Source: Chloroflexi bacterium UBA5177 (GTDB lineage: Bacteria > Chloroflexota > UBA5177). From it: a DNA stretch of 46,350 bases. Numbering within the stretch: position 1 is the stretch's first letter; each line of letters opens with the position of its first letter. The stretch spans positions 1 to 46,350 of the forward strand of contig DHWR01000054.1 in NCBI GenBank assembly GCA_002413265.1, in the 5' to 3' direction. The translations under genes were made by a program, and so were the position numbers. The notes under the pieces were generated by a model, which ran no database searches, was not told the DNA's origin, and saw only the letters and a program-made list of their open reading frames with translations. This document shows, piece after piece, positions 203-35,194 of this stretch.

Positions 203-298
203 GCAGCGCGGTGCCGCCAACTGTGATTGGGGCTTCCATGCGGGCTGCCCCAGATCGCCGTACGACAGTGGCGGCGATGGGGAGTAGGAGGGACGCGC

Positions 299-1081
299 TT
301 GAACGTTGTCGTTTGCATGAAGCAGGTGCCGGACACCACGGCAAAAAAGGAGCTGAGTCCGGACTTCACGCTCAATAGAGAGGCCCTCGAAAAGGTAGTC
401 AACCCCTTCGACGAGTACGCGATAGAAGAGGCGCTTCGGATCAAGGAGAGGTCTGGAGGCGCGGTGACCATTCTCACGATGGGGCCGGAATCGGCGGAGG
501 AAAGCGTTCGCAAGGCGCTCGCCATGGGCGCCGATAGCGCCGTCTTGGTTTGCGATTCGGCTCTCCATGGAACCGACTGGTTCGGAACGTGCGTCGTTTT
601 GGCAAAGGCGCTAGAGTCGATCGAATATGATCTGATTCTCACCGGCATGGAGAGCACCGATGCTCGCATGGGTCTGGTGCCGGCCGGCCTTGCCGAGATG
701 CTCGATCTGCCCCTGGTCACATTGGTTTCAAAACTGGAGCCGCACGACGGTACGGTACGAGCCAATCGCCAGGTCAGCGGTGGTTATCAGGAAGTCGAAA
801 CGTCACTGCCGGCCGTGGTCAGTGTCGTGAAAGGGGCAAACGAGCCCCGCTATCCCTCGCTGAAGGGCATCATGGCAGCCAAACGCAAGACGATCGAAAA
901 GCGCGGTTTGAGCGACCTCGGGATTCCCACTGCCCAGGTCGGGCTCCAGGGCGCCAAGACGCAGGTGACCGCAGTGACTCCACGGCCGGAGAAAACGGCG
1001 GGACAAGTGGTCAAACCGGAGTCTCCGGAGGAAGCCGCCAGAGTTGTTGCGGACTTCCTCCAAGAGCGGAAATTTATCTAA
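299..1081 (+). CDS. etfB: Electron transfer flavoprotein, beta subunit
   Basis: EtfB is the small subunit of the soluble ETF heterodimer, which takes electrons from acyl-CoA dehydrogenases and passes them to a membrane ETF:quinone oxidoreductase. The 260-residue product has the family start NVVVCMKQVPD, the AMP-binding-type stretch NPFDEYAIEEAL near residue 36, and the EtfB motif region ANRQVSGGYQEVE followed by EPRYPSLKGIMAAKRK. The start is a TTG at 299, chosen because AGGAGG lies at 286-291 with 7-base spacing. An upstream ATG at 227 would add 24 residues unlike the family. First gene of the acyl-CoA oxidation operon; etfA follows after 26 bases. Confidence 0.96.
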   Translation: MNVVVCMKQVPDTTAKKELSPDFTLNREALEKVVNPFDEYAIEEALRIKERSGGAVTILTMGPESAEESVRKALAMGADSAVLVCDSALHGTDWFGTCVVLAKALESIEYDLILTGMESTDARMGLVPAGLAEMLDLPLVTLVSKLEPHDGTVRANRQVSGGYQEVETSLPAVVSVVKGANEPRYPSLKGIMAAKRKTIEKRGLSDLGIPTAQVGLQGAKTQVTAVTPRPEKTAGQVVKPESPEEAARVVADFLQERKFI

Positions 1082-1107: not shown

Positions 1108-2085
1108 GTGGCAGAGAACGTCCTTATCTATGTGGAGCACGAGGGGGGCCGGCCCAAACGCGCGGCTCTTGAGGCCGCGACCAAAGCTGCCCAGCTAGCC
1201 GATGGCGGAAAGGTCCATGCGGTCGCGCTCGGCAAGTCGGCTGCGGCGACTGCAGAGAGCCTGTGTCGTCACGGCGTCGACCTCGTCCACGTCTCCGAGG
1301 ACGCCGTTTTCGACGACTATCTGGTTGACCCCCACGTCGAGGTCTTGAAGCAAATTCTCGACGGCGAAAGCGTGTCCGCCGTAGTGCTCGCGGATACCGG
1401 CGACAGCAAAGACGTAGCCGCCAGGCTGGCTGCGAGGCTGGGAGGAGGGCTGGTTTCAGCCGTGGTCGACCTCGCGCCACACGACGGCCATCTCGACGCG
1501 AACGAGACGATCTTCGGGGGATCCTTCACGACGGTCGTCGAAACCAAGAACGCTTCGATCTCGGTCTACCTAGTGCGGCCGAACGCCTTCACTCCGGAGG
1601 AGAACCCGAAGCAAACAAACGTGACTCGCATAGAGTTTTCGCCGTCCGACAAGGCGACACGCGTCCGCCGGGGCAAGCGCGTCGAAGAGGAAGGAGCCTC
1701 CATGCCTCTCGAGGAGGCCGGCATCATCGTGTCGGGGGGCCGCGGTCTGGGTGGTCCCGAGCCGTTCCAGCTCCTGGCCGAGCTTGCAGCTGAACTGGGC
1801 GGCGTGGTTGGCGCGTCGCGCGCTGCCGTTGACGCCGGCTGGATCCCGTACGCTCACCAGGTCGGACAAACCGGCCGCACGGTAAAACCTCAGTTGTATC
1901 TGGCGATCGGCATCTCGGGCGCGGTCCAGCACCGAGTAGGCATGCAGACAGCCGACACGATCATCGCCATCAATCGCTCTGAAGATGCTCCGATATTCCA
2001 ACTAGCCGACCTGTCGGTGGTGGGAGATCTCTTCAAGGTGGTTCCGGCGCTTACCGAGGAGCTGCGTCGCCGGAAAGGCAGTTGA
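1108..2085 (+). CDS. etfA: Electron transfer flavoprotein, alpha subunit
   Basis: EtfA carries the FAD of ETF. The 325-residue product has an N-terminal adenine-nucleotide-hydrolase-like domain (to about 185) and the C-terminal FAD-binding domain. The family signature LYLAIGISGAVQH starts near residue 263, and the conserved IIAINRSEDAPIFQLAD and VGDLFKVVP stretches follow. The start is GTG, with a GGAGAG stretch about ten bases upstream. It ends three bases before the GTG of the next gene, so translational coupling is likely. The gene order etfB-etfA-acyl-CoA dehydrogenase points to beta-oxidation-type electron transfer rather than nitrogen-fixation Fix genes. Confidence 0.96.
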   Translation: MAENVLIYVEHEGGRPKRAALEAATKAAQLADGGKVHAVALGKSAAATAESLCRHGVDLVHVSEDAVFDDYLVDPHVEVLKQILDGESVSAVVLADTGDSKDVAARLAARLGGGLVSAVVDLAPHDGHLDANETIFGGSFTTVVETKNASISVYLVRPNAFTPEENPKQTNVTRIEFSPSDKATRVRRGKRVEEEGASMPLEEAGIIVSGGRGLGGPEPFQLLAELAAELGGVVGASRAAVDAGWIPYAHQVGQTGRTVKPQLYLAIGISGAVQHRVGMQTADTIIAINRSEDAPIFQLADLSVVGDLFKVVPALTEELRRRKGS

Positions 2086-2088
2086 GAG

Positions 2089-3237
2089 GTGGATTTCAGT
2101 CTCTCTGAAGAGCAGCTGATGATCCGCGATCTCGCACGGGACTTCGCTCGAAACGAGATCGCGCCGAAGGCTGAGCACTTCGATAAGGCCAGGCAGTTTC
2201 CGTATGAAATCGTCGCGAAGATGGCGGAGCTGGGCTTTCTCGGCCTGCCCGTGCCGGAGGATCTAGGCGGGACCGGCGCCGACACGCTGACCTACGCACT
2301 TGCCGTGGAGGAGATATCCCGAGGAGACGCGTCGGTCGGCATCACCATGGCGGCACACACCTCCCTCGGTACCATGCCCTTTGTCCTGTTCGGTACGGAC
2401 GAACAAAAACGAGAGTATGTGCCCCGACTGGCTTCAGGTAAGCAGCTCTGGTCGTTCGGCCTTACCGAGCCCAATGCCGGCTCCGACGCCGGGAACACTC
2501 AAACCCGAGCTGAGCTACGGGACGGGTCGTGGACGATCAACGGCGTGAAGTCTTTCATCACGAATTCAGGCACGACGCTCAGCGGCGGTGTAACCATCAC
2601 TGCCGTCACGGGCAGGCGAGACGACGGCAAGAAAGAGATATCCAATATCGTCGTGCCAACCGGTACCGGCGGGTACCAGGTCGCGAAAGACTACGACAAG
2701 ATGGGGTGGAGGGCGTCGGATACCCACGAGCTGTCGTTCCAGGATGCGCACGTTCCCGAGGAGAACCTGCTGGGGGTTCGTGGCGAAGGGTTTCAGCAAT
2801 TCCTTACCATCCTGGACAGTGGGCGCATCTCGGTAGCAGCTCTGAGCGTCGGCCTGGCCCAGGCCTGCTACGACGCCTCGTTTCGGTACGCTCGGGAACG
2901 GCAGCAGTTCGGCAAGTCCATCTCGAAGTTCCAGGCAGTTCAATTTCGCCTGGCAGACATGGCTACCGAAATCGAGCTGGCGAGGCTGATGACATACAAA
3001 GCTGCGTGGCAGAAAGACCAGGGCCACGACTTCCGCATGGCTGCCGGGATGGCAAAGCTCTATTCGACCGAAGTTGCCACGCGGGCCGCTAATCACGCTG
3101 TCCAGATCCATGGTGGATACGGGATCATGGAAGAGTTCCCGGTCGCCCGGTACTGGCGAGATGTAAAGATCGGTGAGATCGGGGAAGGGACCAGCGAAAT
3201 CCAGCGCACCGTGATAGCCAGGTTGCTGGGCGCATAG
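2089..3237 (+). CDS. Acyl-CoA dehydrogenase (first of three)
   Basis: FAD-dependent alpha,beta-dehydrogenation of an acyl-CoA thioester, with electrons passing to the ETF encoded just upstream. The 382 residues show the full family fold: an N-terminal helical domain (SLSEEQLMIRDLARDF), the middle beta domain with FGLTEPNAGSDAGNTQT, and the C-terminal helical domain with RERQQFGKSISKFQAVQFRLADMA. The likely catalytic glutamate is E366 in IGEGTSEIQ. That motif reads IGEGT, not the IYEGT of the two paralogues downstream, and the preceding strand has MGWRASDTHELSF, so it probably has a different acyl preference. The substrate cannot be read from sequence alone. GTG start. Confidence 0.93.
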   Translation: MDFSLSEEQLMIRDLARDFARNEIAPKAEHFDKARQFPYEIVAKMAELGFLGLPVPEDLGGTGADTLTYALAVEEISRGDASVGITMAAHTSLGTMPFVLFGTDEQKREYVPRLASGKQLWSFGLTEPNAGSDAGNTQTRAELRDGSWTINGVKSFITNSGTTLSGGVTITAVTGRRDDGKKEISNIVVPTGTGGYQVAKDYDKMGWRASDTHELSFQDAHVPEENLLGVRGEGFQQFLTILDSGRISVAALSVGLAQACYDASFRYARERQQFGKSISKFQAVQFRLADMATEIELARLMTYKAAWQKDQGHDFRMAAGMAKLYSTEVATRAANHAVQIHGGYGIMEEFPVARYWRDVKIGEIGEGTSEIQRTVIARLLGA

Positions 3238-3252
3238 GAGAGGGGCCGACAG

Positions 3253-4434
3253 ATGGACGAGGTGGTGCTGGCGGGCGTGGCGCGCACGCCATTCGGAAGG
3301 CTGGGCGGCTCTCTAAGCGCTCTGTCCGCGATCGATCTGGGCTCAGTTGTGATCCGAGCATCCCTGGAACGTGCCGGCGTTCCCTTCGATCAGGTCGACG
3401 GAGTCGTCTTGGGAACCGTGATCACCGCGGGCCTGGGACAGATTCCCGCACGGCAGGCGGCGCTGAAAGCCGGGCTCTCGAAAGAGGTGTCAGCACTGAC
3501 CGTGAACAAGGTGTGCGCCTCGAGTCTCAAGGCCATAAACCTGGCGGCGCAAGCGATCAAAGCGGGAGATGCGCAAGTGGTGGTGGCAGGCGGCATGGAA
3601 AGCATGAGCGGCGCCCCCTATCTGGTCGATGGGGCTCGCTTCGGCCTGAAAATGGGCGATGCCACGTTCGTGGATTCCATAATGCGTGATGGCCTCAACT
3701 GCCCGGTCGGGTGTGTTCCCATGCACGAGTACGGGAGCGATGTCGCAGCGGAGTTCGAGATAAGCAGAGAGGACCAGGATCGGTGGGCTCTATCGAGCCA
3801 ACAGAGGTGGGCGCAGGCGCTCGAGTCCGGCAAATTTGACGAGGAGGTCGTCCCCGTCGAGGTGCCGGGTAGAAATGGTGACCTTCAGTTAGTAAGCGTG
3901 GACGAAGCTCCTCGACCAGACACCACGCTCGAGGCTCTGGCTCGCCTGCGTCCGCTGAAATCGGGGGGAAGTGTCACGGCCGGAAATGCTCCGAGTGTCA
4001 ACGACGGTGCCTCGGCCCTGGTCGTGTTATCGCGATCGAAAGCCGAGGAGCTGGGGGTGCGACCCCTGGCGATCCACCTGGCGCAGGGAGAGGCTAACGA
4101 CGAGAATCGCTACCTCCACACTGTCCCTGCCGACGCGATCTGCAATGGTTTGAAGAAAGCGAATCTGCGGCTGCCGGATGTCGGCCTCTTTGAAATCAAC
4201 GAGGCGTTCGCCGCAGTCACTCTGAAAAGCACGCAAATGCTGGGCATCGACCCTGAGATTGTCAATGTCGACGGCGGAGCCGTAGCCATGGGGCATCCGA
4301 TAGGCGCCTCTGGTGCCCGGATTTTGGGCCATCTTGTTTTGGAGATGCAGCGTCGCGGGGTGGAGTACGGGGCGGCGGGAATCTGTAGCGGAATGGCCCA
4401 GGGCGAAGCAGCCATCGTCCGCCTCGCGCGGTAG
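3253..4434 (+). CDS. Thiolase (acetyl-CoA C-acyltransferase)
   Basis: Thiolase II family enzyme that cleaves 3-ketoacyl-CoA to acetyl-CoA plus a shortened acyl-CoA, or condenses two acetyl-CoA. The 393 residues match the family length. The nucleophile is C88 in NKVCASSLKAI, NEAFAAV is present, H348 lies in GGAVAMGHPIGASGARIL, and the second active-site cysteine is C378 in ICSGMAQGEA. That last motif departs from the usual C-x-G-G-G loop but keeps small residues at alternate positions. It lies between the first and second acyl-CoA dehydrogenase genes. No enoyl-CoA hydratase or 3-hydroxyacyl-CoA dehydrogenase is present in the window, so the cycle must be completed from elsewhere. Confidence 0.93.
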   Translation: MDEVVLAGVARTPFGRLGGSLSALSAIDLGSVVIRASLERAGVPFDQVDGVVLGTVITAGLGQIPARQAALKAGLSKEVSALTVNKVCASSLKAINLAAQAIKAGDAQVVVAGGMESMSGAPYLVDGARFGLKMGDATFVDSIMRDGLNCPVGCVPMHEYGSDVAAEFEISREDQDRWALSSQQRWAQALESGKFDEEVVPVEVPGRNGDLQLVSVDEAPRPDTTLEALARLRPLKSGGSVTAGNAPSVNDGASALVVLSRSKAEELGVRPLAIHLAQGEANDENRYLHTVPADAICNGLKKANLRLPDVGLFEINEAFAAVTLKSTQMLGIDPEIVNVDGGAVAMGHPIGASGARILGHLVLEMQRRGVEYGAAGICSGMAQGEAAIVRLAR

Positions 4435-4441
4435 TGGCAGG

Positions 4442-5584
4442 ATGGACTTCTCACTGAGCGGAGACGAGGAGGACATTCTCGACCTGGTTCGAGAATTCGC
4501 CACGAACGAGGTGCTTCCTCGAGCGGCTCAGATAGACGAGAAGGCCGAGTTTCCGGCGGATCTGGTCTCCAAGATGGGAGAGCTGGGCCTGATGGGGGTG
4601 CCGTTTCCCGAGGAGTACGGAGGCGCCGGCCAGAGCTATGTGGTCTTCGCGCGAATCGTCGAGGAGCTGTGCCGCGCCTGCGCCAGCACCGGCCTGATCA
4701 TGGACGTCAATATCTCACTGTGCGGAGAACCGATCATGGTGTTCGGTTCTGAGGCACAAAAGCAGAAGTATCTCGTGCCGCTGGCGACCGGCGAGAAGCT
4801 TGGCGCTTTGGCGATGACGGAGCCCGAGGCGGGCTCCGATGCCGCTTCGATCAAGACCTCCGCGGATCGCAGGAACGATCATTACCTGCTCAACGGGCGT
4901 AAGATCTTCATCACCAACGGAGAGGTGGCGGATACCTACGTGGTGACCGCCGTCACGGACAGAGACAAGGGAACCAGTGGCATCACCGACTTCATAGTCG
5001 AGAAGGAGATGCCCGGCGTCTCTTTCGCCACCCACTACGACAAGATGGGAATCCGAGGCGCGCCAACCACCGACGTGGTGCTCGAGAATGTGGAAGTTCC
5101 GGTTGACAACGTTCTTGGTGGCGAAGGTAACGGCTTCAAGGTCACGATGGACACGCTCGACGCCGGCAGGATTGGTATCGCGGCTCAGGCGGTAGGCATA
5201 GCGCGTGCGGCCCTGGAGGACGCGACAGACTACGCCAGGACGCGCCGGCAATTTGGTGCGACCATCAGCACTTTTCAGGGTTTACAGTTCATGCTGGCCG
5301 ATATGGCGACCCAGGTTCATGCATCCCGGGCACTGATGCTGCGGGCAGCGTACCTGCGCGATCAGGAGATCGCTTGCGCTCGCGAGTCCTCGATGGCCAA
5401 GCTATTTGCCGGGGACACGGCGATGCAGGTGACGACCGATGCAGTCCAGATTTTCGGTGGTTACGGCTACATGCAGGAGTATCCGGTCGAGCGCCACATG
5501 CGGGATGCCAAGATCACGCAGATCTATGAGGGAACTCAGCAGATCCAACGTGTGGTCATCGCTCGGCAGGTGATCGGGCGATGA
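4442..5584 (+). CDS. Acyl-CoA dehydrogenase (second of three)
   Basis: Short- or medium-chain acyl-CoA dehydrogenase of 380 residues, counted from the ATG at 4442. The longer open frame from 4313 would overlap the thiolase gene by 120 bases, and the product from 4442 begins MDFSLSGDEEDILDLVREF like its paralogues. Conserved parts are MTEPEAGSDAASIKT, KIFITNGEVAD, the MGIRGAPTTDVV strand and ARTRRQFGATISTFQGLQFMLADMA. Catalytic E363 sits in QIYEGTQQIQRVVIARQ. It overlaps the next gene by the four bases ATGA. ETF from the same operon is the likely electron acceptor. Confidence 0.94.
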   Translation: MDFSLSGDEEDILDLVREFATNEVLPRAAQIDEKAEFPADLVSKMGELGLMGVPFPEEYGGAGQSYVVFARIVEELCRACASTGLIMDVNISLCGEPIMVFGSEAQKQKYLVPLATGEKLGALAMTEPEAGSDAASIKTSADRRNDHYLLNGRKIFITNGEVADTYVVTAVTDRDKGTSGITDFIVEKEMPGVSFATHYDKMGIRGAPTTDVVLENVEVPVDNVLGGEGNGFKVTMDTLDAGRIGIAAQAVGIARAALEDATDYARTRRQFGATISTFQGLQFMLADMATQVHASRALMLRAAYLRDQEIACARESSMAKLFAGDTAMQVTTDAVQIFGGYGYMQEYPVERHMRDAKITQIYEGTQQIQRVVIARQVIGR

Positions 5585-6726
5585 AATTCGAGCTTAGCGA
5601 AGATCAGCTCATGATTCGAGATGCGGTGCGCGAGTTCGCGCGTGAAGTGGTCGAGCCACGGGCCGAGGAGATCGATCGTGAGAACCGCTTCCCCACGGAG
5701 CTCGTGCAGCGGGCGGCCGAGCTTGATCTCTGCGGCATCGTCGTGCCTGAGCGGTATGGCGGGCCCGGCCTAGATCACATCGCCTTCGCAATCTTCGTGG
5801 AGGAGATAGCTGCGGTTTCCGGTACCCTCGCGGTCATTCTGGACGTGCATACATCGGTCGGGACGGAGCCGATCATTCAGTTTGGAAGTGAGGAGCAGAA
5901 AGAGCGGTATCTGCCGGAGCTGGCCAGCGGCCGCATTCTTGGCGCTTTTGCCCTCACAGAGCCGGAATCGGGTTCAGATGCGGCAAGTCTTGGCGCAACC
6001 GGCGTCCGCGACGGCGCAGACTTCGTGCTCAACGGGACCAAGACGTTCATAACCAACGTCGGCCATGCCGGCCTGTACATCGTCATGGCCCGCACCGAAG
6101 ACCAGCCTGGAGCTCGTGGCATTTCAGCCTTTTTGGTGGATGCAGACACCAGTGGAGTTCGTTTCGGGGAACCGATGCACAAGATGGGACTTCGCGGCTC
6201 GGCCACGGGTGAGCTCATTCTGGAAGATGTTCGGGTGCCCGCCGGCAACATGTTAGGGAGACCCGGCGAGGGTTTCGCGATCGCCATGAAGGCGCTTGAC
6301 AGTGGGCGCATTGGGATCAGCGCTCAGGCAATTGGTCTGGCTCGCGGCGCTCTGGACTACGCCGTCAACTACGCGAAGGGCCGCGAGCAGTTCGGCCAGG
6401 CGATTGTCCGCTTCGAGGGCATCCAGTTCATGATTGCCGACATGGCAACCGCTCTCGATGCGGCCAGACTGATGACCTGGCAAGCCGCAGACGCCTGCGA
6501 TCGTGGCCTTCAGTTCTCGCAGCTCGCATCCATGGCAAAGCTCTTTGCTACGGACACGGCGATGAAGGTCACAATCGACTCTGTTCAAATATTGGGTGGG
6601 TACGGATATATCAAGGAGTTCCCCGTGGAGAGAATGATGCGGGATGCCAAGGCGACACAAATATATGAGGGCACGAACCAGATTCAGCGCATCGTGATCG
6701 CTCGGGAGCTCCTCAAGGTTGACTGA
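5581..6726 (+). CDS. Acyl-CoA dehydrogenase (third of three)
   Basis: Third paralogue, 381 residues, starting within the stop of the second (ATGA overlap at 5581-5584). It has ALTEPESGSDAASLGAT, KTFITNVGHAG, the MGLRGSATGELIL strand, AKGREQFGQAIVRFEGIQFMIADMA, and catalytic E363 in QIYEGTNQIQRIVIARE. It looks closer to the second than to the first, suggesting a tandem duplication that then diverged. In this operon the three enzymes could cover different chain shapes, such as isobutyryl-CoA before and butyryl-CoA after the mutase step. That assignment is inference. Confidence 0.94.
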   Translation: MKFELSEDQLMIRDAVREFAREVVEPRAEEIDRENRFPTELVQRAAELDLCGIVVPERYGGPGLDHIAFAIFVEEIAAVSGTLAVILDVHTSVGTEPIIQFGSEEQKERYLPELASGRILGAFALTEPESGSDAASLGATGVRDGADFVLNGTKTFITNVGHAGLYIVMARTEDQPGARGISAFLVDADTSGVRFGEPMHKMGLRGSATGELILEDVRVPAGNMLGRPGEGFAIAMKALDSGRIGISAQAIGLARGALDYAVNYAKGREQFGQAIVRFEGIQFMIADMATALDAARLMTWQAADACDRGLQFSQLASMAKLFATDTAMKVTIDSVQILGGYGYIKEFPVERMMRDAKATQIYEGTNQIQRIVIARELLKVD

Positions 6727-6767: not shown

Positions 6768-7724
6768 ATGGCGTCTGAGCCGAGCCTACTGGTCGCGAGT
6801 GCGCTGTCCGGCAATCGACGGGCCGCGGGGCGACTGATCTCAATGATCGAAGATGATGCCCCTCAAGTGGAGCAGATCATGAGAGCCGTCTATCCGCATA
6901 CCGGCAACGCGTACCTCATTGGATTTACGGGACCGCCTGGAGCCGGCAAGAGCACGCTGGTGGACGAGCTCGTGCGCGTAGTACGCACGTCTGACCAGTC
7001 GGTCGGCATTATTGCTGTTGATCCAAACAGTCCGTTCACGGGCGGGGCGATCCTCGGAGATCGAATACGCATGATGCGCCACGCCACGGACCCCCAGGTG
7101 TTCATTCGCAGCATGGGAGCGCGAGGCCACCTAGGAGGCCTTGCGGTGGCCGCACAGAACGCGAGCTTCTTGTTCGACGCAATGGGAATGAGCCTGGTTC
7201 TGGTGGAGACCGTAGGCGTCGGTCAGTCCGAGCTCGAAATCGCAGAGATGGCGGACACGACGGTCGTGGTGATGCCGCCTGGTTTCGGTGACGGCGTGCA
7301 GGCTATTAAGGCCGGCATCATGGAGATTGCGGACATCTTCGTGGTCAATAAGGCCGACGACCCCATGGCATCGAAGGCCGTCTCCGATATTCGCGACGTG
7401 CTTCGCATGGATCTCGAGCATCGAGAGTGGACGCAGCCGATCGTTAGGACCATTGCGACGTCCGCCGAGGGACTCGAGGACTTGTGGATGCGAATCCAAC
7501 AGCATCGGGGCTACCTCGAGCAGAGTGGCGAGCTTCGAAGAAGGCGCAGAGCAAGAATCGAGCGAGAGATCATGCGCATTGCCGAGCGGAAGCTTCTGGA
7601 GAGGGTGCTGCAGCCGCGTACCGAGAGCCAGGAGTTCGAGACTATGCTTGACCTGGCACTGGAGCATCGCATGGACCCATACGCAGTTGCGGACCACATT
7701 GTGTCGTTTCGGGACGGCCGGTAG
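6768..7724 (+). CDS. meaB: MeaB/ArgK-family P-loop GTPase, chaperone of the B12-dependent mutase
   Basis: G-protein chaperone that gates cobalamin loading into, and protects, adenosylcobalamin-dependent acyl-CoA mutases. The 318 residues carry Walker A GPPGAGKS at 55-62, the DPNSPFTGGAILGDRIRM magnesium/switch region, the VETVGVGQSE switch and the NKAD guanine-specificity motif. It lies just before the mutase large subunit gene, as in many mutase operons. The fused enzyme IcmF combines exactly these three parts (B12 domain, G domain, mutase domain) in one chain. The ATG at 6768 has only a weak ribosome-binding site. A function in arginine transport, implied by the old name ArgK, is not supported here. 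Confidence 0.93.
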   Translation: MASEPSLLVASALSGNRRAAGRLISMIEDDAPQVEQIMRAVYPHTGNAYLIGFTGPPGAGKSTLVDELVRVVRTSDQSVGIIAVDPNSPFTGGAILGDRIRMMRHATDPQVFIRSMGARGHLGGLAVAAQNASFLFDAMGMSLVLVETVGVGQSELEIAEMADTTVVVMPPGFGDGVQAIKAGIMEIADIFVVNKADDPMASKAVSDIRDVLRMDLEHREWTQPIVRTIATSAEGLEDLWMRIQQHRGYLEQSGELRRRRRARIEREIMRIAERKLLERVLQPRTESQEFETMLDLALEHRMDPYAVADHIVSFRDGR

Positions 7725-7733
7725 GGGGAGCGA

Positions 7734-9386
7734 ATGGACAAGGACGGAGCTCTGACACCGGACTTCGAGGAGCGGAGGGACAATCCTGCCGGCCGCGAGA
7801 GAGACTTTTCTTTCACCACTCTGTCCGATCAACCGATAAAACCGCTATACACCCTTGGCGACCGCGAGGACGCAGACTTCGCCCTCGACATCGGCTTCCC
7901 CGGCGAATACCCGTATACGCGTGGCATCTACCACAACATGTACCGCGGCCGGCTCTGGACGATGAGGCAATTCGCCGGCTTTGGCGCCGCCTCCGACACC
8001 AATCGGCGCTTTCACTACCTTCTGGAGCACGGAGTGACGGGGCTCTCCGTTGCCTTCGACAACCCGACGCTCATGGGTATGGACTCCGACGATCCCCGGT
8101 CATTTGGAGAAGTTGGCCGCACCGGGGTGGCGATCGATTCACTGGCGGACATGGAGACCCTCTTCGACGGCATTCCGCTGGACCAGGTCAGCACGTCGAT
8201 GACCATCAACGCGCCGGCGGCGGTGCTGCTGGCGATGTATGTGGCGGTGGGCGAGAAGCAGGGCGTGGCCGCAAGCAAGCTGACCGGCACTCTGCAGAAC
8301 GACATTCTCAAGGAATACATTGCCCAGAAGGAGTGGATCTACCCTCCAGCCGCCGGCGTAAAGCTAATAGTCGACACCATAGAGTTCACCTCCCGCGAGA
8401 TCCCCAAGTACAACCCGGTGAGCATCTCCGGCTACCACATTCGAGAAGCGGGTTCGACGGCCGTCCAAGAGCTGGCGTTCACGATCGCAGATGGCATGAC
8501 GTACGTCGAAAGCTGCGTCAATCGCGGGCTTGCCGTCGATTCGTTTGCCCCGCGCCTGTCGTTCTTCTGGAATTCCCACATCGACTTCTTCGAGGAAGTT
8601 GCGAAGTTCCGAGCGGCGCGCAGGATCTGGTCTCGGCTGATGCGGGAGAAGTACGGAGCCAAGGACCCGAAGTCCTGGCTCATGCGATTTCACACGCAGA
8701 CGGCTGGAGTCTCACTCACGGCTCAGCAGCCGGAAAACAACATTGTCCGAACAGCGCTTGAGGCGTTGGCAGCGGTTCTGGGCGGTACTCAGTCTCTTCA
8801 CACCAATTCCATGGACGAGGTCCTGGCACTTCCCACCGAGAAGGCCGTGGAAATCGCGCTGCGAACGCAGCAGATCATTGCATTCGAAACGGGAGTGGTG
8901 AACACCGTCGATCCGCTGGGTGGCTCGTACTTCGTCGAAGCTCTCACCGATGAGATGGAGTCCGGAGCGCTTGAGTACTTCGCCCGTATCGAAGAGCTCG
9001 GAGGGGTGCTTCCGGGGATCGAGCAGGGCTTTTTCCAGCGAGAGATAGGAGAGGCCGCATTCAGATATCAGCAACAGCTGGAACGTAAGGAGAAGGCGAT
9101 GGTGGGGGTCAACGAGTTCGTGGACTCAGCTCCGATCGACATACCGATCCTTCGCATCGATCCGGATGTCGAGCGGTCACAGAGGGCCCGCCTGGCAGAA
9201 GTGAAGACGAGTCGAAACCATCCTCAGGTCGCCGGAGCTCTCGACCACCTGTCGGCGGCCACCCGGCGGGAGGAAAATGTCATGCCCTACATTCTCGACG
9301 CGGTTCGAGGGTACGCGACAGTGCAGGAAATCTCCGATGCTATGAAGGTGACACTCGGAAGCTATCGTGAGCCCGCCTTCGTTTAG
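7734..9386 (+). CDS. icmA: B12-dependent acyl-CoA mutase large subunit, isobutyryl-CoA mutase-like (methylmalonyl-CoA mutase family)
   Basis: Catalytic TIM-barrel subunit (550 residues) of an adenosylcobalamin-dependent carbon-skeleton mutase, without the C-terminal B12 domain, which is the next gene. The family core is clear: [46 protein letters not shown] (Y234, H235) and [18 protein letters not shown]. In Propionibacterium methylmalonyl-CoA mutase, Tyr89 (in RQYAG) and Arg207 (in FMVRN) contact the substrate carboxylate. The aligned residues here are Phe80 (RQFAG) and Gln198 (YIAQK), the pair known from isobutyryl-CoA mutase. The predicted reaction is isobutyryl-CoA to n-butyryl-CoA, or a close relative such as the pivalyl/isovaleryl-CoA pair. 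The family is certain; the substrate is inferred from these two residues. Confidence 0.88.
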
Positions 9387-9405: not shown

Positions 9406-9825
9406 TTGACAGAATCGGGAAGAATCAGGGTACTGATGGCCAAAGCCGGCCTGGACGGCCACGACCGTGGAGTGAAGGTTGTTGCTCGCGCGCTGCGCGA
9501 CTCCGGGATAGAGGTGATCTACACGGGCTTACATCAGACGCCGGAGCAGGTTGTCGCGGCTGCGGTGCAGGAAGATGTGGATGCTATCGGGCTCTCCCTC
9601 CTCTCCGGGGCGCACATGACCATCTTTCCCAGGATCCTCGACTTGTTGAAATCGGAGGACGCAGGCGACATCGTCCTTTTCGGGGGTGGCACGATACCAG
9701 ACCCCGATGTTGCCGAGCTCAAGAAAGCTGGCGTTGCCGAGCTCTTCACGCCGGGATCCTCGACCCTGGACATCGTGGACTGGGTGCGAAACAACCTCCA
9801 GCACAAGAGCCATGCGAGCGCCTAG
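9406..9825 (+). CDS. icmB: B12-dependent acyl-CoA mutase small subunit (cobalamin-binding)
   Basis: Stand-alone cobalamin-binding domain of 139 residues partnering the large subunit upstream. It has the base-off/His-on signature D-x-H-x-x-G in [14 protein letters not shown], the S-x-L motif in [12 protein letters not shown], and the glycine turn [12 protein letters not shown] before TPGSS. The start is a TTG at 9406, preceded by GGAGGAG at 9394-9400. The open frame extends back to 9367 inside the large-subunit gene, but that adds 13 residues with no ribosome-binding site. Size and separate coding match IcmB and split methylmalonyl-CoA mutases. Last gene of the operon. Confidence 0.94.
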
Positions 9826-9836
9826 GGTTTGTCTGT

Positions 9837-10136
9837 CTACAGGAACTGGCCGGCCATCACGATCAACAACATCACCCCCAGAGACGCGAAGGATCCGACC
9901 ACTACCGTGAGCATCGGCGCCAAAGACAGGTATCGCCAGCGAGCCGCGTCTCCCCGCGCGTCGTCTCGGCGAAACGCCAGTATGAGTTGCCGCACAACTG
10001 CCACGTACACCAGGACGTAGAAGATCGCTGCCCCGGTGGTCTGCAGCAGCGTAAATCCCAGGAACTTACTGAAAAGGAAGCCTTCCACGAACCAAATTGA
10101 TCCCGCTAGAAGTAGGTAGAAGGTGGCGCGAAACAT
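9837..10136 (-). CDS. Small three-helix membrane protein, unknown function
   Basis: A 99-residue product with about three hydrophobic segments (YLLLAGSIWFVEGFLF, TTGAAIFYVLVYVAVV, and a long C-terminal one ending IVMAGQFL), separated by a charged loop RRDDARGDAARWR. I do not recognise a family. It is convergent with the mutase small subunit and ends only 11 bases from it. It lies downstream of tRNA-Leu on the same strand, with a hairpin between. The ATG at 10136 is used; a TTG two codons upstream is also possible, and no clear ribosome-binding site is seen. The coding call rests on the hydrophobic pattern and tight packing. Confidence 0.6.
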   Translation of the reverse strand: MFRATFYLLLAGSIWFVEGFLFSKFLGFTLLQTTGAAIFYVLVYVAVVRQLILAFRRDDARGDAARWRYLSLAPMLTVVVGSFASLGVMLLIVMAGQFL

Positions 10137-10148
10137 CGGCAATCAAAG

Positions 10149-10337: not shown

Positions 10338-10362
10338 CGGCAAACGGTGTGGTAGTTTGCCG
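10338..10362. repeat. Inverted repeat ahead of the adenosyltransferase gene
   Basis: CGGCAAAC at 10338-10345 and GTTTGCCG at 10355-10362 form a perfect 8-base inverted repeat with a 9-base centre. It lies 21 bases before the adenosyltransferase ATG, just upstream of its ribosome-binding site. It could be an operator or a leader hairpin. The short region does not resemble a cobalamin riboswitch. Confidence 0.45.
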
Positions 10363-10383
10363 TACTGGGTGGAGGTGACGGTC

Positions 10384-10911
10384 ATGGCGCGGGTCACTAC
10401 GAGAACCGGAGACGACGGCTACACCGACCTTCTCGGCTCGGGTAGAGTCCCGAAGTATCATCGCCGTCCGGAGGCCTACGGCACGGTCGACGAAGCGACC
10501 TCTGCCCTGGGTCTGGCGCGGGCCCTGTCAACGTCGGCCGAACTCAAAGAGATTGTAGGAAAGGTTCAAAGCGATCTGTACGTGCTGATGGCCGAGCTCG
10601 CCACGGCCCCCGAAAACTACGACAAGGTCGATTTCAAGATTAAGCCGGAGGATGTCCACAGGATCGATGCCGAGAGTGAGAGGTTGAAGGGTCAGGTGGA
10701 GATCGGCAACCGATTCATCATTCCTGGAGACACGGTGGTCGGTGCTTCCCTGGATGTGGCACGAACCATTGTTCGACGGGCCGAAAGACAGGTGGCGCGC
10801 CTGTACCACGAAGGCGACGTCAAGAATGCTGACGCGCTGGGCTACCTGAATCGGCTGTCGGATCTGCTTTTCATCCTGGCCCGCTGGGAAGAAGCCGCCT
10901 CGAGCAGCTGA
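10384..10911 (+). CDS. pduO: PduO-type corrinoid adenosyltransferase (ATP:cob(I)alamin)
   Basis: Transfers the adenosyl group of ATP to cob(I)alamin, making the adenosylcobalamin needed by the mutase encoded about 600 bases upstream. The 175-residue product has the N-terminal ATP-binding motif TRTGDDGYTDLLGSGR and the VDEATSALGLAR helix. The C-terminal signature is RTIVRRAERQVARL followed by LNRLSDLLFILARWEE. The ATG at 10384 is chosen because GGTGGAGGTGA lies just upstream; an in-frame ATG at 10357 would add nine residues. The enzyme belongs to the PduO/MMAB fold, not the CobA or EutT folds. It is a separate transcription unit from the mutase operon, beginning past tRNA-Leu. Confidence 0.93.
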   Translation: MARVTTRTGDDGYTDLLGSGRVPKYHRRPEAYGTVDEATSALGLARALSTSAELKEIVGKVQSDLYVLMAELATAPENYDKVDFKIKPEDVHRIDAESERLKGQVEIGNRFIIPGDTVVGASLDVARTIVRRAERQVARLYHEGDVKNADALGYLNRLSDLLFILARWEEAASSS

Positions 10912-11986: not shown

Positions 11987-13030
11987 TTATAGGGACAAGC
12001 TCGGGTGGACATCGGGATCCTGGGCAGCGGCTGGAACAAAATGGCCGGCCGAGGCGATCATCGCCCCGTTGTCCGTGCAATATTCGAGTTCAGCCAGGCA
12101 GAGCGGGAGCCTCGCGGCCGCCTCCATGCGCCGGCGCAACGCACTACTCGCGGCCACACCTCCGACGACGGCCACAGACGCGGCTTTCATCTCGAGAGCG
12201 GCTTGCCAGCATTTTGTAGCGAGAACGTCCACCACACTTTGCTGGAATCCAGAGGCGATGTTTGCGATCTGTTCTCTTGACAGATCCGCGGAGAGACCGA
12301 CCGAATGCAACGATGCTCCTCGCGACGGCGTCTCACTGCCGTTGGCCGCGTGAACGGTGTGTAGCACTGCCGTTTTCAATCCGCTAAAGGAAAAATTGTA
12401 GGTTCCCGGCAGCCAGGCCCGCGGGAATTGCACCGGATTGGTCGCCTCCCTAGATACGGCTTCGATGCTCGGTCCCCCGGGGTACGGAAGCCCGAGGAGT
12501 CGCGCCACCTTGTCGAACGCTTCTCCAGCCGCGTCGTCCAGGGTGCGACCGAGCACCTGGTACTCTCCATGATCCGTGACCAGCACAAGCTCGGTGTGGC
12601 CGCCAGACACGATCAAGGTCAGCATCGGTAGCTCTGGGCCGGGCTGAGGTGGATCTGCCCGCGTCAACCACACCGAGTGCAGGTGTCCCTCCAAATGGTT
12701 TACCGCAACGAAGGGACGCCCAAGAGCTAGCGACAAGGCTCGCCCGAACGTCAAACCTACTAGCAATGCGCCAGCAAGGCCGGGTCCTTGTGTGGCGGCT
12801 ACGGTGTCGATGTCTTGTTTCTGGATGCCGGCACTAGCCAGCGCAAGCTCGACCACGGGGATGATGGAGCGAACATGCTGGCGGCTGGCGATCTCGGGAA
12901 CCACGCCACCAAACTCAGCATGCAGCTGTACCTGCGAAGAGACCACGTTCGAACGGACCAGGCGACCGTCCTCGACAACTGCCGCGCTCGTCTCATCACA
13001 CGAAGTCTCGATGCCGAGAGTCAGAGTCAC
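11987..13030 (-). CDS. tsaD: tRNA N6-adenosine threonylcarbamoyltransferase TsaD
   Basis: Transfers threonylcarbamoyl from TC-AMP to A37 of ANN-decoding tRNAs, working with TsaB and TsaE, which are encoded upstream in this operon. The 347-residue ASKHA-fold product begins TLGIETSCDETSAAVVEDG. It has the iron-binding histidines H112 and H116 in NHLEGHLHS, the GPGLAGALLVGL loop at 82-93 and LTLIVSGGHTELV. Near the C terminus are VVGGVAASSALRRRM and YCTDNGAMIA. The ATG overlaps the stop of the acetyltransferase gene by four bases. No tsaC/sua5, the TC-AMP synthase, is present in the window. Confidence 0.96.
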   Translation of the reverse strand: MTLTLGIETSCDETSAAVVEDGRLVRSNVVSSQVQLHAEFGGVVPEIASRQHVRSIIPVVELALASAGIQKQDIDTVAATQGPGLAGALLVGLTFGRALSLALGRPFVAVNHLEGHLHSVWLTRADPPQPGPELPMLTLIVSGGHTELVLVTDHGEYQVLGRTLDDAAGEAFDKVARLLGLPYPGGPSIEAVSREATNPVQFPRAWLPGTYNFSFSGLKTAVLHTVHAANGSETPSRGASLHSVGLSADLSREQIANIASGFQQSVVDVLATKCWQAALEMKAASVAVVGGVAASSALRRRMEAAARLPLCLAELEYCTDNGAMIASAGHFVPAAAQDPDVHPSLSL

Positions 13031-13716
13031 GCGTCTTTGGCGGCCTCTTCCGAGTGCGCCTCGAGAGAGCCACCTGGAAGGTGAATAAACAGATCACCCG
13101 CTTCGCCGAGTCGTTTTTGAAGTTCCGTCACGTGCTCCTCGAACCGTCGCCGATATTGCTCGTCTCGTATGTCGGGCGTGGTCATGATGTAGGCGTCTTC
13201 ATTGTTGTCGCTGTAGTAACGAGGTCTCAGACCCTCGGTCTCAAATCCGTACTTCCGATAGAGCCTTTGAGCCACGTCGTTAGACATCCGCACCTCGAGG
13301 GTCAGGCGGTGGGCACCCATGTCCTGAGCTGCCTCCAGCAGCGTCGCCAGAAGAAGTTCTCCAAGCTTTTTGCCTCGCCACTCGGGACGCACCGCAATGG
13401 TCGTGATGTGCGCCTCGTCGATCATCAGCCACATTCCGGCGTATCCGGCTATCTGGCCTGTGCTTTGACGATCTTCTTCGTTGCGCTGCGGTCTAAAGAG
13501 AAACCCGAGAGGGAACCTGGGACGACTGGGCTCCCGTGGTACGGGAACCGGTCTCCCCTCCGGAATCTGGCGTAGCACGAAGTACCGCGCGTTGCGATTG
13601 TGCAAAATCTCACGCCGGTAGGCGCTTGCCGGCCAGGGAAGGGAATAGCTCAGCCGATCCACTTCCAGGACTTCGGGAATGTCGGCGAGATCCATGGCCT
13701 CGACAAGGAGTCTCAT
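13027..13716 (-). CDS. rimI: RimI-like GNAT N-acetyltransferase with insertion and C-terminal extension
   Basis: GNAT-fold acetyltransferase related to RimI, which acetylates the N terminus of ribosomal protein S18. The acetyl-CoA loop is in AVRPEWRGKKLGELLLATLLE (around 108-128), followed by LEVRMSNDVAQRLYRKYGFE and a YYSDNNEDAYIM strand typical of RimI. At 229 residues it is longer than usual RimI (about 150): residues 51-87 are a proline/arginine-rich insertion between two core strands, and the last 55 or so residues form a charged helical tail. Its position between tsaB and tsaD is the common RimI context. Whether it still acetylates S18 is not shown. Confidence 0.88.
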   Translation of the reverse strand: MRLLVEAMDLADIPEVLEVDRLSYSLPWPASAYRREILHNRNARYFVLRQIPEGRPVPVPREPSRPRFPLGFLFRPQRNEEDRQSTGQIAGYAGMWLMIDEAHITTIAVRPEWRGKKLGELLLATLLEAAQDMGAHRLTLEVRMSNDVAQRLYRKYGFETEGLRPRYYSDNNEDAYIMTTPDIRDEQYRRRFEEHVTELQKRLGEAGDLFIHLPGGSLEAHSEEAAKDA

Positions 13717-13719
13717 CGC

Positions 13720-14397
13720 TCACCCTTGAGCCGCATCCCGCTTTTCCTCCGCGGCGGAGCGCCGGAGATACAACGGCTCTGCCTCGTGCGATTCGTCCCG
13801 TCCACCCTGCGCAAAGTACGCTCTGCCCAATTCTGCCAGAAGGGATGCGCGCCTCAGGCTCGCCCACGGCTCGCGAGAAACGGATATTCCGTTTGCGGAG
13901 AGATACTCAGAGACTTCAGGGAGCTCCTCGCCGCAGAGGCAGTCGCCCTCGTAGACGTGCGCGGCCAGCTGGCTCAGTGAAAGCAACAGGTACTCGCTGG
14001 AACGCACGACGCGGCTCTGCTGGACCTGGTATCGGGCCAGATAGTATTGGCCGCGCCCGGCCGAAATGAGCGCACAGACGCTGGGCCCGCGAGAGCCCGC
14101 GGCCAGAACATCGAGCGTGCTGACTCCAGCCAGGGGAATGTCCAGAGCCAAAGCGAAGGCTTTGCTTGCACTCATTCCGACTCGGATGCCGCTAAACGAG
14201 CCCGGTCCAGTGGCAACCGCCAGCGCGCCGACGTCCTTGATGTTTGAGCCGGAAAGTTCAAAAAGCGTGTCGAGAGCTCGGAACAGCTGCGTCGAGTGAT
14301 GTGATCCGGCGGTCCAGGAAATCTCCGCCTGCACCCCGGACTTGTTACTCAGGGCGACGCTCGCTTGGGCCGTCGATGTATCGATAGCAAGGATCAC
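13720..14397 (-). CDS. tsaB: tRNA threonylcarbamoyladenosine biosynthesis protein TsaB
   Basis: TsaB is the scaffold partner of TsaD in the bacterial t6A complex. The 225-residue product opens MILAIDTSTAQASVALSN and has HSTQLFRALDTLFELSG. The glycine-rich loop AVATGPGSFSGIRVGMSASKAFA follows around 62-84, and then GVSTLDVLAAG. The C-terminal half is variable, as usual for the family, and ends with a charged tail. It lies two bases after tsaE and three bases before rimI on the same strand, so all four genes are probably one transcript. Confidence 0.94.
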   Translation of the reverse strand: MILAIDTSTAQASVALSNKSGVQAEISWTAGSHHSTQLFRALDTLFELSGSNIKDVGALAVATGPGSFSGIRVGMSASKAFALALDIPLAGVSTLDVLAAGSRGPSVCALISAGRGQYYLARYQVQQSRVVRSSEYLLLSLSQLAAHVYEGDCLCGEELPEVSEYLSANGISVSREPWASLRRASLLAELGRAYFAQGGRDESHEAEPLYLRRSAAEEKRDAAQG

Positions 14398-14399
14398 TC

Positions 14400-14849
14400 T
14401 CAGACACCCTCCCGGTACTCGCGTATGCGCAAGCTGCGTTCATTTGCCGACGTGTGCTGAAGCCAGACGTCCACGAGACGCGATGTGGCCAATCCCCGAA
14501 GGTACTCCTCGGCTCGCTCGGGCCACTCACAGACCAGCACGCTCTCTCTCGTGGCGTACTCCTCCAGCCCCAATCCCTCAGCTTCGGCGCCGGTCAGACG
14601 GTATAGGTCCGCATGATAGAGACGCGGAGTCGTTTCGTACTCGTGTATCAGCGAATAGCTTGGACTTCCCCGCCACGCAGCCGCGTCAAGCCCGGCCGCG
14701 AGACCGCCGGCAAACACGGTCTTCCCCGCGCCCAGCGCTCCATGCAAGAGGAGGATCTCGCCGCCGCCAAGGGTGGCGGCAAGCCTTGCGCCCCAGGATG
14801 CCGTCTCTTCTGCCGACACAGTTACGAGTTCGGTCAATGCGCGATTCAT
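14400..14849 (-). CDS. tsaE: tRNA threonylcarbamoyladenosine biosynthesis ATPase TsaE
   Basis: P-loop ATPase of the t6A pathway that resets the TsaB-TsaD complex. The motifs are LLHGALGAGKTVFAGGLAAGL (Walker A) and YSLIHEYETTPRLYHADLYRL, with the family's H-x-D-x-Y-R element, then LVCEWPERAEEYL. From the ATG at 14849 the product is 149 residues, the usual TsaE length, with GAGGGG about 12 bases upstream. Another ATG at 14879 would add ten residues, and the open frame continues to 15044, inside the divergent kinase gene, which is unlikely. First gene of the minus-strand t6A operon. Confidence 0.92.
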   Translation of the reverse strand: MNRALTELVTVSAEETASWGARLAATLGGGEILLLHGALGAGKTVFAGGLAAGLDAAAWRGSPSYSLIHEYETTPRLYHADLYRLTGAEAEGLGLEEYATRESVLVCEWPERAEEYLRGLATSRLVDVWLQHTSANERSLRIREYREGV

Positions 14850-14900
14850 TTGCTCGCTCAACCCCTCTGTACTGAACATGGATGTTGAGGTGGTGACCGA

Positions 14901-16547
14901 ATGTCGAGGCCGGTGACGGGGCGACGAAGACGTGGGTTCAAGATTCTCAGTCTGTTTTTCGAGCTGGTTTCCGGCTTCTTTGTGCGCTGGCTCGGTGCTC
15001 GCCTGGTGGGCCGCAGCTACGATTTCTTTGGCGACGAGGAACACAATCGGCGGCGCGCAATCAAGATACGAAAAGCGGCACTGGAGATGGGCGGAGTTCT
15101 TGTCAAGGTTGGTCAGTTCCTCAGCACTCGTGTCGATCTACTGCCACCTGAATATATCGAAGAGCTCTCTTTACTTCAGGACGAGGTGCCTGGCGTGGCG
15201 TTTCCAGAGATCAAGCGCGCCGCCGAAGCGAGCCTTGGACAAAGCCTGGATGCGGCCTTTTCAGATTTCGATCAGTTGCCGGTGGCAGCGGCATCTCTCG
15301 GCCAGGTGCACCGCGCTCGACTGCGAACGGGCGAGATAGTTGCCGTCAAGGTCCAGCGACCCGACATTGCTGTGATCGTGGAAGCCGACCTTGCGGCGTT
15401 CCGATACATCGTTCGATGGCTCGGTCGCTTCCGCGCGATTCGCCGTCGAGCGAATCTTCAGGCCGTGCTGCGTGAGTTCGAAACAACGCTGCGCATGGAG
15501 CTGGACTACGTGCGAGAAGCGCATCACGCGGAGCGCCTTTCGGTGATGTTTTCGAACTCGAAGGAAATCGCCGTGCCTCGCGTCTACTGGTCGCATACCA
15601 CCACGCGTGTGATCACACTGCAGTTCATGACCGGATACAAGATCACCGATTTTGAGGCATTGGAGCAGGCCCAGATCGACCGAGCCGTGGTGGCTCAGAT
15701 CCTCATGCGCGCATACCTCTTGCAGGTTCTCGAGGACGGCTTCTTTCACGCCGACCCACACCCGGGTAACGTTTTAGTTCGCCCCGGTCCAGTGGTCGTG
15801 CTCCTCGATTTCGGCATGGTCGGAGAGATGACGCCAGCGGTTCGGGACAACATTCGCCGGGTATTCCTGGGAGTGATCCATCGCGATTATGAAGACATGC
15901 TGTCCGCGCTGCAGGCGATAGGGTTCTTCGGCCCGAACGCAGACCGTCGAGTGCTGAAGCGAGCCCTCGCCTGGTGCATAGACACGTTCTATGAGATGTC
16001 CCTCGGCGAGCTGCGCACCATCGATCCACGCGCCGTGCTGGCTCAAATCCAAGACGTCCTTTACCTCGAGTCGTTCCAAATACCTGCGAATTTCGCTTTC
16101 TTGGGACGTGCCCTCGGCACCCTGAGTGGTCTCGCCACCGCGCTGGATCCCAGTTTTCAATTCTTCACCGTGGCCGAGCCCTACGCCCGCAAGCTGATGG
16201 GCGCGGAGAGCGGCTGGAGAGGAATGGTAGAGGTGGCCGTGCGGGAGATGCGAACCATGGCGCACACGGCGTACGAGCTACCCCTGTTGACGAGGGAAGC
16301 CTTACATGCGGTCAATCGTGGCGAATACGATCTGCGGCAACAGTTTGAAGGCGTTGAGCGCGCAGTAATCCGACTGGACGTGGCGATGCACCGCATGCTG
16401 TACGCCCTTCTGGTCCTGACCTTCGTACTGGCCGGCGTCATCATCTTCCCTACCCACTACTCCGCGCTGGCCGTGCTTGCGTTTGTTGTTTCCTTGCTCT
16501 TTCTGGGTGGTGTTTTTTTCGGCGGCGGGAGGAGGCGCCGACGCTAG
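14901..16547 (+). CDS. ubiB: UbiB/ABC1 (AarF)-family atypical kinase
   Basis: ABC1/ADCK/UbiB proteins are membrane-associated atypical kinases or ATPases linked to isoprenoid quinone synthesis. The 548 residues show the family's inhibitory K-x-G-Q motif (KVGQ at 69-72, then FLSTRVDLLPPEY) and the alanine-rich loop AAASLGQ at 129-135. Also present are the lysine K150 in VAVKVQRP, the catalytic loop HADPHPGN at 283-290 and D303 in LLDFGM. Two hydrophobic segments at the C terminus (about 490-540) end in an arginine cluster, a usual membrane anchor. It is divergent from tsaE with about 50 bases between starts. The quinone link fits the respiratory genes in this window, although they are not adjacent. 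Confidence 0.92.
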   Translation: MSRPVTGRRRRGFKILSLFFELVSGFFVRWLGARLVGRSYDFFGDEEHNRRRAIKIRKAALEMGGVLVKVGQFLSTRVDLLPPEYIEELSLLQDEVPGVAFPEIKRAAEASLGQSLDAAFSDFDQLPVAAASLGQVHRARLRTGEIVAVKVQRPDIAVIVEADLAAFRYIVRWLGRFRAIRRRANLQAVLREFETTLRMELDYVREAHHAERLSVMFSNSKEIAVPRVYWSHTTTRVITLQFMTGYKITDFEALEQAQIDRAVVAQILMRAYLLQVLEDGFFHADPHPGNVLVRPGPVVVLLDFGMVGEMTPAVRDNIRRVFLGVIHRDYEDMLSALQAIGFFGPNADRRVLKRALAWCIDTFYEMSLGELRTIDPRAVLAQIQDVLYLESFQIPANFAFLGRALGTLSGLATALDPSFQFFTVAEPYARKLMGAESGWRGMVEVAVREMRTMAHTAYELPLLTREALHAVNRGEYDLRQQFEGVERAVIRLDVAMHRMLYALLVLTFVLAGVIIFPTHYSALAVLAFVVSLLFLGGVFFGGGRRRRR

Positions 16548-25292: not shown

Positions 25293-25300
25293 GCCTGCTC

Positions 25301-25777
25301 CTAAGCAGACCTGGCGGGGGAGCGTGAGCTCCAGCGAACGATCGCTCCGACTATGTACACCAGCGAGGCAATGAGACCCAACCAAATTCCAAACCCGCGG
25401 CTCGTTCCGGTACCCGCGCAAAGAACGCACGAGTACTTACCAAGCTGGTAATCGAACAGCAGAACCAGCACGATCCCCATGCAGAGGTAAACCAGAGGAG
25501 TGGTGAATGGCAGCGGAGGAAGGCCGTTGGTCGAGGCGAGTCCCGGGTAAATGACCAGAAAGAGAGTCGCCAGGAAGAAAACAATTACGACGACCGATGC
25601 CGCCTCAGAGTACGTAAATGCCCATTGTGACCCGGGCCCACCAGGAGTATTGCTCACGAACCAGGGCAGGAAGAGACTGACCAGGGTTACCAAACCCGAA
25701 GCAAGAACTAGATAATCGCCAAGAGTCACACGGCGCGCGTCGAAAAAGCCGCGCCGCCTGGATCGAACAGCTCGCAT
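25301..25777 (-). CDS. Four-helix membrane protein of unknown function
   Basis: A 158-residue product from the ATG at 25777, with GGGAGG ten bases upstream; the frame is open to 25885. A basic N terminus ([12 protein letters not shown]) precedes four hydrophobic segments: [57 protein letters not shown] and [20 protein letters not shown] pair of cysteines (CVLC) lies in the last external loop, next to GTGTSRGFG. The pattern of a loop with [15 protein letters not shown] resembles small actinobacterial and chloroflexal membrane proteins of no known role. It ends eight bases before the hutU start on the same strand, so the two may be co-transcribed. Confidence 0.72.
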
Positions 25778-26948: not shown

Positions 26949-26949
26949 C

Positions 26950-27441: not shown

Positions 27442-27442
27442 A

Positions 27443-30469: not shown

Positions 30470-30530
30470 TGCGGTGCTTTGTGCAGGCGCGCCGATTCAC
30501 TCAGCGAAGCGCTCCTCGCCGGAGGTTTTC

Positions 30531-32642: not shown

Positions 32643-32657
32643 CCGAGGGCCCCAACA

Positions 32658-33698: not shown

Positions 33699-33759
33699 AG
33701 CAGGACCACAGCCCCGCGGTCCCGTTTCCCGGTTCCCAATCCGTAAGTGTGAGGTCTTA

Positions 33760-34206: not shown

Positions 34207-34236
34207 AGGCCCGGCACGAATGAGGAGGACGGTGGG

Positions 34237-35192: not shown

Positions 35193-35194
35193 CC

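Follow-up and report, generated by a model that had tools for sequence, protein, structure and literature searches.

A probable two-subunit isobutyryl-CoA mutase in a beta-oxidation operon of Chloroflexota, and a small subunit that it may share with a methylmalonyl-CoA mutase

Which acyl-CoA does the B12-dependent mutase of this locus rearrange? The window, by which we mean the whole stretch of 46,350 nucleotides from Chloroflexi bacterium UBA5177 that was analyzed, encodes a mutase in two parts next to genes of acyl-CoA oxidation. The name that automatic annotation gives to its large subunit, methylmalonyl-CoA mutase (MCM), points to propionate metabolism; the preliminary description read the enzyme as an isobutyryl-CoA mutase. 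The genes that bear on the question are the following.

227..1081, + strand: ETF beta subunit (PF01012)
1108..2085, + strand: ETF alpha subunit (PF00766, PF01012)
2089..3237, + strand: acyl-CoA dehydrogenase 1 (PF02771/02770/00441; PDB search)
3253..4434, + strand: thiolase of the acetyl-CoA acetyltransferase type (PF00108, PF02803; top PDB chains so named)
4442..5584, + strand: acyl-CoA dehydrogenase 2, start ATG at 4442 (Pfam; best substrate-named PDB chain 1buc)
5581..6726, + strand: acyl-CoA dehydrogenase 3 (Pfam; among substrate-named PDB chains, short-chain acyl-CoA dehydrogenases score best)
6768..7724, + strand: MeaB-type GTPase chaperone (TIGR00750, 339.5 bits, cut-off 240.75; P-loop GPPGAGKS)
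7734..9386, + strand: mutase large subunit, IcmA-like, 550 aa, with F80/Q198, A107, N110 and H235 (residues, trees)
9406..9825, + strand: B12-binding small subunit, IcmB-like (TIGR00640, 158 bits, cut-off 57.45)
10357..10911, + strand: PduO-type cob(I)alamin adenosyltransferase (TIGR00636, 153.6 bits, cut-off 108.45)

Residues of the large subunit

In a profile search the large subunit matched PF01642 at 729.6 bits. This is the sole domain of the 550-aa protein and the B12 domain (PF02310) lies in the next ORF, an arrangement that defines the split form of the enzyme. Positions 80 and 198 are Phe and Gln (F/Q), exactly where the preliminary description had placed them, and alignment with PDB sequences puts Tyr and Arg (Y/R) at these sites in human and mycobacterial MCM. 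HcmA (4r3u) carries Ile and Gln there (I/Q), a pair that differs from F/Q as had been claimed. In the Propionibacterium entry 5req, which we take to be the Y89F mutant of the MCM of that organism, chain positions 88 (F) and 206 (R) lie opposite the two sites, the chain numbering being one below the usual 89/207. The PDB MCM sequences also have His at the site of H235. A passage of PMC7238569, which cites the two specificity sites from Jost 2015, makes Tyr plus Arg the mark of an MCM; the window protein carries Phe and Gln in their place. Of 7999 homologues scored, 120 were listed; 119 of these carry RQFAG (the remaining one gives no motif match) and 117 the Q198 motif, in either of two 14-letter forms (three without match), and none of the non-matching ones was seen with the MCM form of the motifs.

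The expectation that automatic annotation would call this protein an MCM was borne out by TIGR00641, the NCBIfam 'methylmalonyl-CoA mutase N-terminal domain' model, which scores 757 bits against a cut-off of 303.8. The same name is attached to many named homologues of the window protein among the matches listed, including IcmA-type proteins of Streptomyces. Many of these Streptomyces proteins, which are ~88-95% identical to an IcmA query, go under methylmalonyl-CoA mutase or under acyl-CoA mutase family, a few under isobutyryl-CoA mutase. IcmF is misnamed in the same way according to a passage of PMC7764203. The misnaming is common, and pathway reconstructions then show propionate metabolism in cases where a conversion between isobutyrate and butyrate is the likelier process. 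In a scan of 80 genome loci, based on peptide patterns that favoured F or I, and N or M, at the sites, the F/Q type occurred in 23 named phyla among the 71 loci of known phylum; the scan favoured F/Q, and its residue types do not represent frequencies.

A further residue sets the window protein and its nearest relatives apart. Position 110 is Asn in all six sequences of this clade, but Met, Leu, Phe or Tyr in the other F/Q sequences of the alignment (108/108; Met in those of IcmA type) and Leu in the sequences of R type (29/29). The motif VAFDNPT is present in 119 of the 120 listed homologues (of 7999 scored). Asn110 lies three residues past A107, whose column holds the Asp of HcmA. As judged from the alignment, the Asn110 of the clade is unusual, the other mutases compared being hydrophobic at this site, and it may leave room for another acyl-CoA substrate.

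Relationships of the mutase

A FastTree reconstruction of 146 sequences (116 F/Q, 28 Y/R, one I/Q from HcmA and one F/R from 5req) placed all 114 split F/Q sequences in one set with support of 91, IcmA-type proteins of Streptomyces included. A mixture-model tree of 59 sequences united the window protein with its five nearest relatives (100/100) and nested this clade within a set of 26 sequences, all F/Q (98/91), whose members include IcmA-type proteins of Streptomyces, Carboxydocella and two Syntrophomonadaceae (L044, L072). When HcmA was left out, the window protein was recovered in a set of 26 sequences, again all F/Q, with the same support. The F/Q sequences as a whole do not form one clade in the mixture-model trees, and a single origin of F/Q, suggested by the FastTree set, was dropped. 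An AU test left standing a grouping of the window family with Chloroflexota Y/R sequences (p 0.099 with HcmA in the group, 0.108 without). The tree of IcmA, HcmA and MCMs proposed in the preliminary description gave the expected company of Streptomyces IcmA, but did not exclude a grouping with Chloroflexota MCMs. As a separate observation, two mutases of one genome (G164), L232 and L233, share 41 and 31% identity with the window protein and, in a tblastn alignment, carry F/Y and I/Y opposite positions 80 and 198; these divergent proteins possibly act on other substrates.

Identities of the large subunit run from 55.8 and 55.5% with two Streptomyces IcmA-type proteins (P0121, P0186), through 53.2% with the Y/R mutase of its own genome (contig C290) and 51.0% with HcmA, to 44.4-46.1% with three classical MCMs (human 45.1%, Mycobacterium 46.1%). 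The Streptomyces proteins, taken here to represent IcmA, share with the window protein the F/Q pair, the split large subunit and the same tree set, and differ in Met at site 110. Passages of PMC2847961 make IcmA known from the supply of polyketide precursors, whereas the window gene is set among genes of beta-oxidation. HcmA also has a split large subunit and Gln198, but its residue at site 80 is Ile and at site 107 Asp, where the window protein has Phe and Ala. The MCMs (human, Mycobacterium and the C290 copy) have PF01642 and, in the PDB sequences, His at the H235 site in common with it, but differ in Tyr/Arg. Finally, IcmF shares the F/Q pair (Chloroflexota copies L146, L147) but is a fused protein, only 35.9% identical in the case of L146. 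The window large subunit scores 358.5 bits with the IcmF profile, for which the cut-off is 1500, and 2 of 151 Chloroflexota genomes have an IcmF that exceeds it. Since the B12, G and mutase domains are three separate ORFs without fusion, identification as IcmF was rejected.

The closest known system is that of the isobutyrate degrader Syntrophothermus lipocalidus, for which passages of PMC5017805 describe an isobutyryl-CoA mutase cluster (Slip_0757-0760), with homologous clusters in other prokaryotes. As in the window, separate N- and C-terminal mutase proteins, an adenosyltransferase and a MeaB-like protein are found together in that description. With L044 and L072 as stand-ins for the S. lipocalidus sequence, the identity is ~61%, within the same 26-sequence set. 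The window differs in having ETF, three dehydrogenases and a thiolase added to the run, and in Asn at residue 110. Because the S. lipocalidus cluster has already been described as an isobutyryl-CoA mutase, the window enzyme is a new member of a described kind, and the residue of its clade and the probably shared small subunit discussed below make the arrangement a variant. A literature search combining isobutyryl-CoA mutase and Chloroflexota met the mutase, in the passages it returned, in a Syntrophomonadaceae bin; another, on metagenomes and valine, found nothing, and one on the two HcmA residues brought up unrelated work.

The operon and the substrate

The genes, in the order etfB-etfA-acd-thl-acd-acd-meaB-mutL-mutS, all lie on the same strand, and the gaps between them as called measure -20 to 41 bases. 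The small subunit probably starts at TTG 9406, which a GGAGG-like site precedes, rather than at the GTG 9367 of the ORF list; with the TTG start the mutL-mutS gap is 19 bases. The adenosyltransferase begins 531 bases past the small subunit; between the two lies a 101-aa ORF of the opposite strand (9837-10142, -), hydrophobic by eye. Profile searches recovered the ETF pair, the three acyl-CoA dehydrogenases and the thiolase that had been listed for this operon. Among substrate-named PDB chains, dehydrogenase 2 scores 375.7 bits with butyryl-CoA dehydrogenase 1buc, at most 305.4 with isovaleryl-CoA dehydrogenases and 276.1 with ACAD8, and dehydrogenases 1 and 3 are closest to short-chain acyl-CoA dehydrogenase 1jqi (327.7 and 355.5 bits). 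In each of the three dehydrogenases the xEGT motif has its Glu. The ETF alpha subunit (1108-2085) scores best with 4kpu, 6fah and 5ol2, presumably electron-bifurcating ETF systems. Elsewhere in the window are a cluster like those for tRNA t6A synthesis (11987-15044, -), in which a GNAT acetyltransferase, TsaE and a second, TsaB-like protein with a TsaD domain accompany TsaD (11987-13030), and a urocanase (23631-25430, -) followed by complex I (nuo) genes (26340-37114, +).

The gene order is identical through to the adenosyltransferase in loci L135 and L136 and is kept from the thiolase onward in L133 and L137; the adenosyltransferase follows the cassette in L133, L135 and L136. In L134, etfB, etfA, one dehydrogenase and the thiolase stand next to meaB, without the other two dehydrogenases. 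We counted loci with at least one beta-oxidation gene (acyl-CoA dehydrogenase, ETF, thiolase or hydroxyacyl-CoA dehydrogenase) within 5 kb. Such genes accompany 11 of the 15 Chloroflexota F/Q loci that have enough flank, as against none of 12 Y/R loci (Fisher p 0.00018, a guide only, the loci being related). In the wider set 29 of 67 F/Q loci have them and 38 of 67 have none.

We regard the window enzyme as quite probably a two-subunit isobutyryl-CoA mutase that feeds the oxidation of butyryl-CoA, the reading put forward in the preliminary description; its residues, its tree position with Streptomyces IcmA-type sequences, the content of the operon and a separate Y/R mutase in the genome all favor it. 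The residues, tree position, gene order and gene counts are observations; the substrate and the direction we infer. Three features expected of IcmA and IcmB were found: F/Q at the MCM Tyr89/Arg207 sites, a large subunit of ~550-570 aa with a separate B12 protein, and a grouping with Streptomyces IcmA (98/91). The large subunit (7734-9386) would bind the acyl-CoA and the small subunit (9406-9825) adenosylcobalamin, which MeaB (6768-7724) and the adenosyltransferase (10357-10911) would help to deliver. By the radical mechanism that is textbook for the B12 mutase family, a 5'-deoxyadenosyl radical would bring about migration of the thioester carbonyl and so interconvert isobutyryl-CoA and n-butyryl-CoA, with F80 and Q198 in place of the Tyr and Arg that bind the free carboxylate when methylmalonyl-CoA is the substrate. 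Butyryl-CoA would be oxidized by the acyl-CoA dehydrogenases of the operon, with ETF as acceptor, and later steps may fall to the 3-hydroxyacyl-CoA dehydrogenase and crotonase that adjoin on contig C79, followed by the operon thiolase. The Y/R large subunit of C290 would most likely use the window small subunit. Isobutyryl-CoA could come, for example, from valine. With regard to the classical valine route, the best matches in the genome are 258 bits for HIBADH (cut-off 291.6) and 340 bits for MMSDH (cut-off 448.5; above it in 3/6 genomes); a search aimed at the absence of this route did not demonstrate it.

How do other substrates fare against this evidence? An F/Q mutase whose main substrate is another acyl-CoA (pivalyl-CoA, isovaleryl-CoA, a longer 2-methyl-branched or a polar one), with Asn110 as a new specificity residue, is unlikely. 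In its favor, Asn110 is fixed in the six clade sequences and set against all other F/Q and R-type sequences compared, IcmF is reported in a passage of PMC10481361 to take pivalyl- and isovaleryl-CoA as well, and three acyl-CoA dehydrogenases exceed the needs of butyryl-CoA alone. However, dehydrogenases 2 and 3 score higher with butyryl- and short-chain enzymes than with isovaleryl-CoA dehydrogenases. Pivalyl-CoA mutase activity, moreover, is reportedly favored when the Tyr89 site holds something smaller than Phe; the window protein has Phe at this site, position 80.

Both remaining identities appear very improbable. An enzyme converting 2-hydroxyisobutyryl-CoA to 3-hydroxybutyryl-CoA would accord with 4r3u being, by sequence, the nearest of the solved structures (568 bits), with the common Gln198, with the thiolase of the operon and with a passage of PMC7888143 on sulfate reducers whose mutases of this type are annotated as MCM; yet neither acyl-CoA dehydrogenases nor ETF are needed past 3-hydroxybutyryl-CoA. 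We take the signature residues of HcmA to be Ile90 and Asp117, and the HcmA type was rejected because F80 and A107 stand opposite this Ile and Asp. An MCM that tolerates Phe and Gln would vindicate the automatic names (TIGR00641, PF01642) and suit both the MCM epimerase found in the genome and the grouping that the AU test leaves standing. However, both residues that contact the carboxylate are altered and the genome has a Y/R mutase of its own beside sucC and a biotin carboxylase subunit, with similar surroundings, including an adjacent carboxyl transferase, in L131 and L127. These residues, the Y/R copy and the surroundings of the genes led us to discard the MCM identity in favor of the isobutyryl-CoA mutase.

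Two large subunits and one small subunit

The second PF01642 gene of the genome, on contig C290, is of Y/R type. Its neighbors are sucC and the biotin carboxylase subunit (Pfam), together with sucD as read by eye. In L131 (genome G003) a pccA-like gene and then a carboxyl transferase precede the Y/R mutase, which sucD and then sucC follow, and in L127 (G005) the Y/R mutase is flanked by sucC and a carboxyl transferase. The MCM epimerase is above cut-off in 6/6 genomes, that of the window included. Given the Y/R mutase, the biotin carboxylase subunit and the epimerase, propionate metabolism is present in this organism via another enzyme. The earlier contention that the window enzyme does not imply propionate metabolism holds as far as its residues and operon are concerned, but the propionate genes are there, elsewhere in the genome.

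The genome of the window and its five nearest relatives have two large subunits but a single small subunit and a single MeaB above cut-off each, both beside the F/Q gene. In the genome of the window these are the window genes, and a profile search with cut-off found no small subunit for the C290 Y/R mutase. Out of 41 Chloroflexota genomes, 10 gave no large-subunit match and two gave fragments only. Both large types occur in 25 of the 29 that could be classified, and the number of small subunits equals that of large subunits minus exactly one in all 25, 17 of which (one, G010, a single contig) are at least 95% complete. Three of the genomes (G018, G032, G038) have three large and two small subunits, the third large subunit being a Y/R protein of ~48% identity (L129, L130, L208). 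Four genomes have one large subunit, and three of these have one small subunit; the fourth (G006, 83% complete) has none above cut-off and a short small-subunit piece at a contig end.

Judging from these gene counts, the window small subunit probably serves the C290 mutase as well. We further think it rather likely, again from gene counts, that one small subunit and one MeaB from the isobutyryl-CoA mutase operon serve F/Q large subunits in beta-oxidation and Y/R large subunits in propionate metabolism, and that this plug-in arrangement is widespread in bacteria. If so, propionate metabolism would rely on a gene in the operon of another pathway, the B12 supply and the expression of two carbon pathways would be coupled, the 'missing' small subunit of many MCMs would be accounted for, and specificity could be changed by exchanging the large subunit alone. 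A literature search covering titles, abstracts and some passages found no description of a shared small subunit, which does not prove its absence from print.

Thirty further genomes were reached via loci of other phyla and unnamed bins, and gaps in these assemblies would inflate any count of deficits. F/Q and split Y/R mutases occur together in 26 of them, with fewer small than large subunits in 21/26 and equal numbers in 5/26 (G151 Carboxydocella, G152, G158 with a partial second small subunit, G166 and G179). Carboxydocella illustrates that the search finds two small subunits where two exist. Of the other four genomes, two have one F/Q mutase only, one lacks Y/R and one has a fused Y/R. In G153 the mutases lie on one 2.6-Mb contig, with two F/Q, one Y/R and one small subunit, and in G159 (L080, L221, L222, L223) one small subunit was found for one F/Q and three Y/R large subunits.
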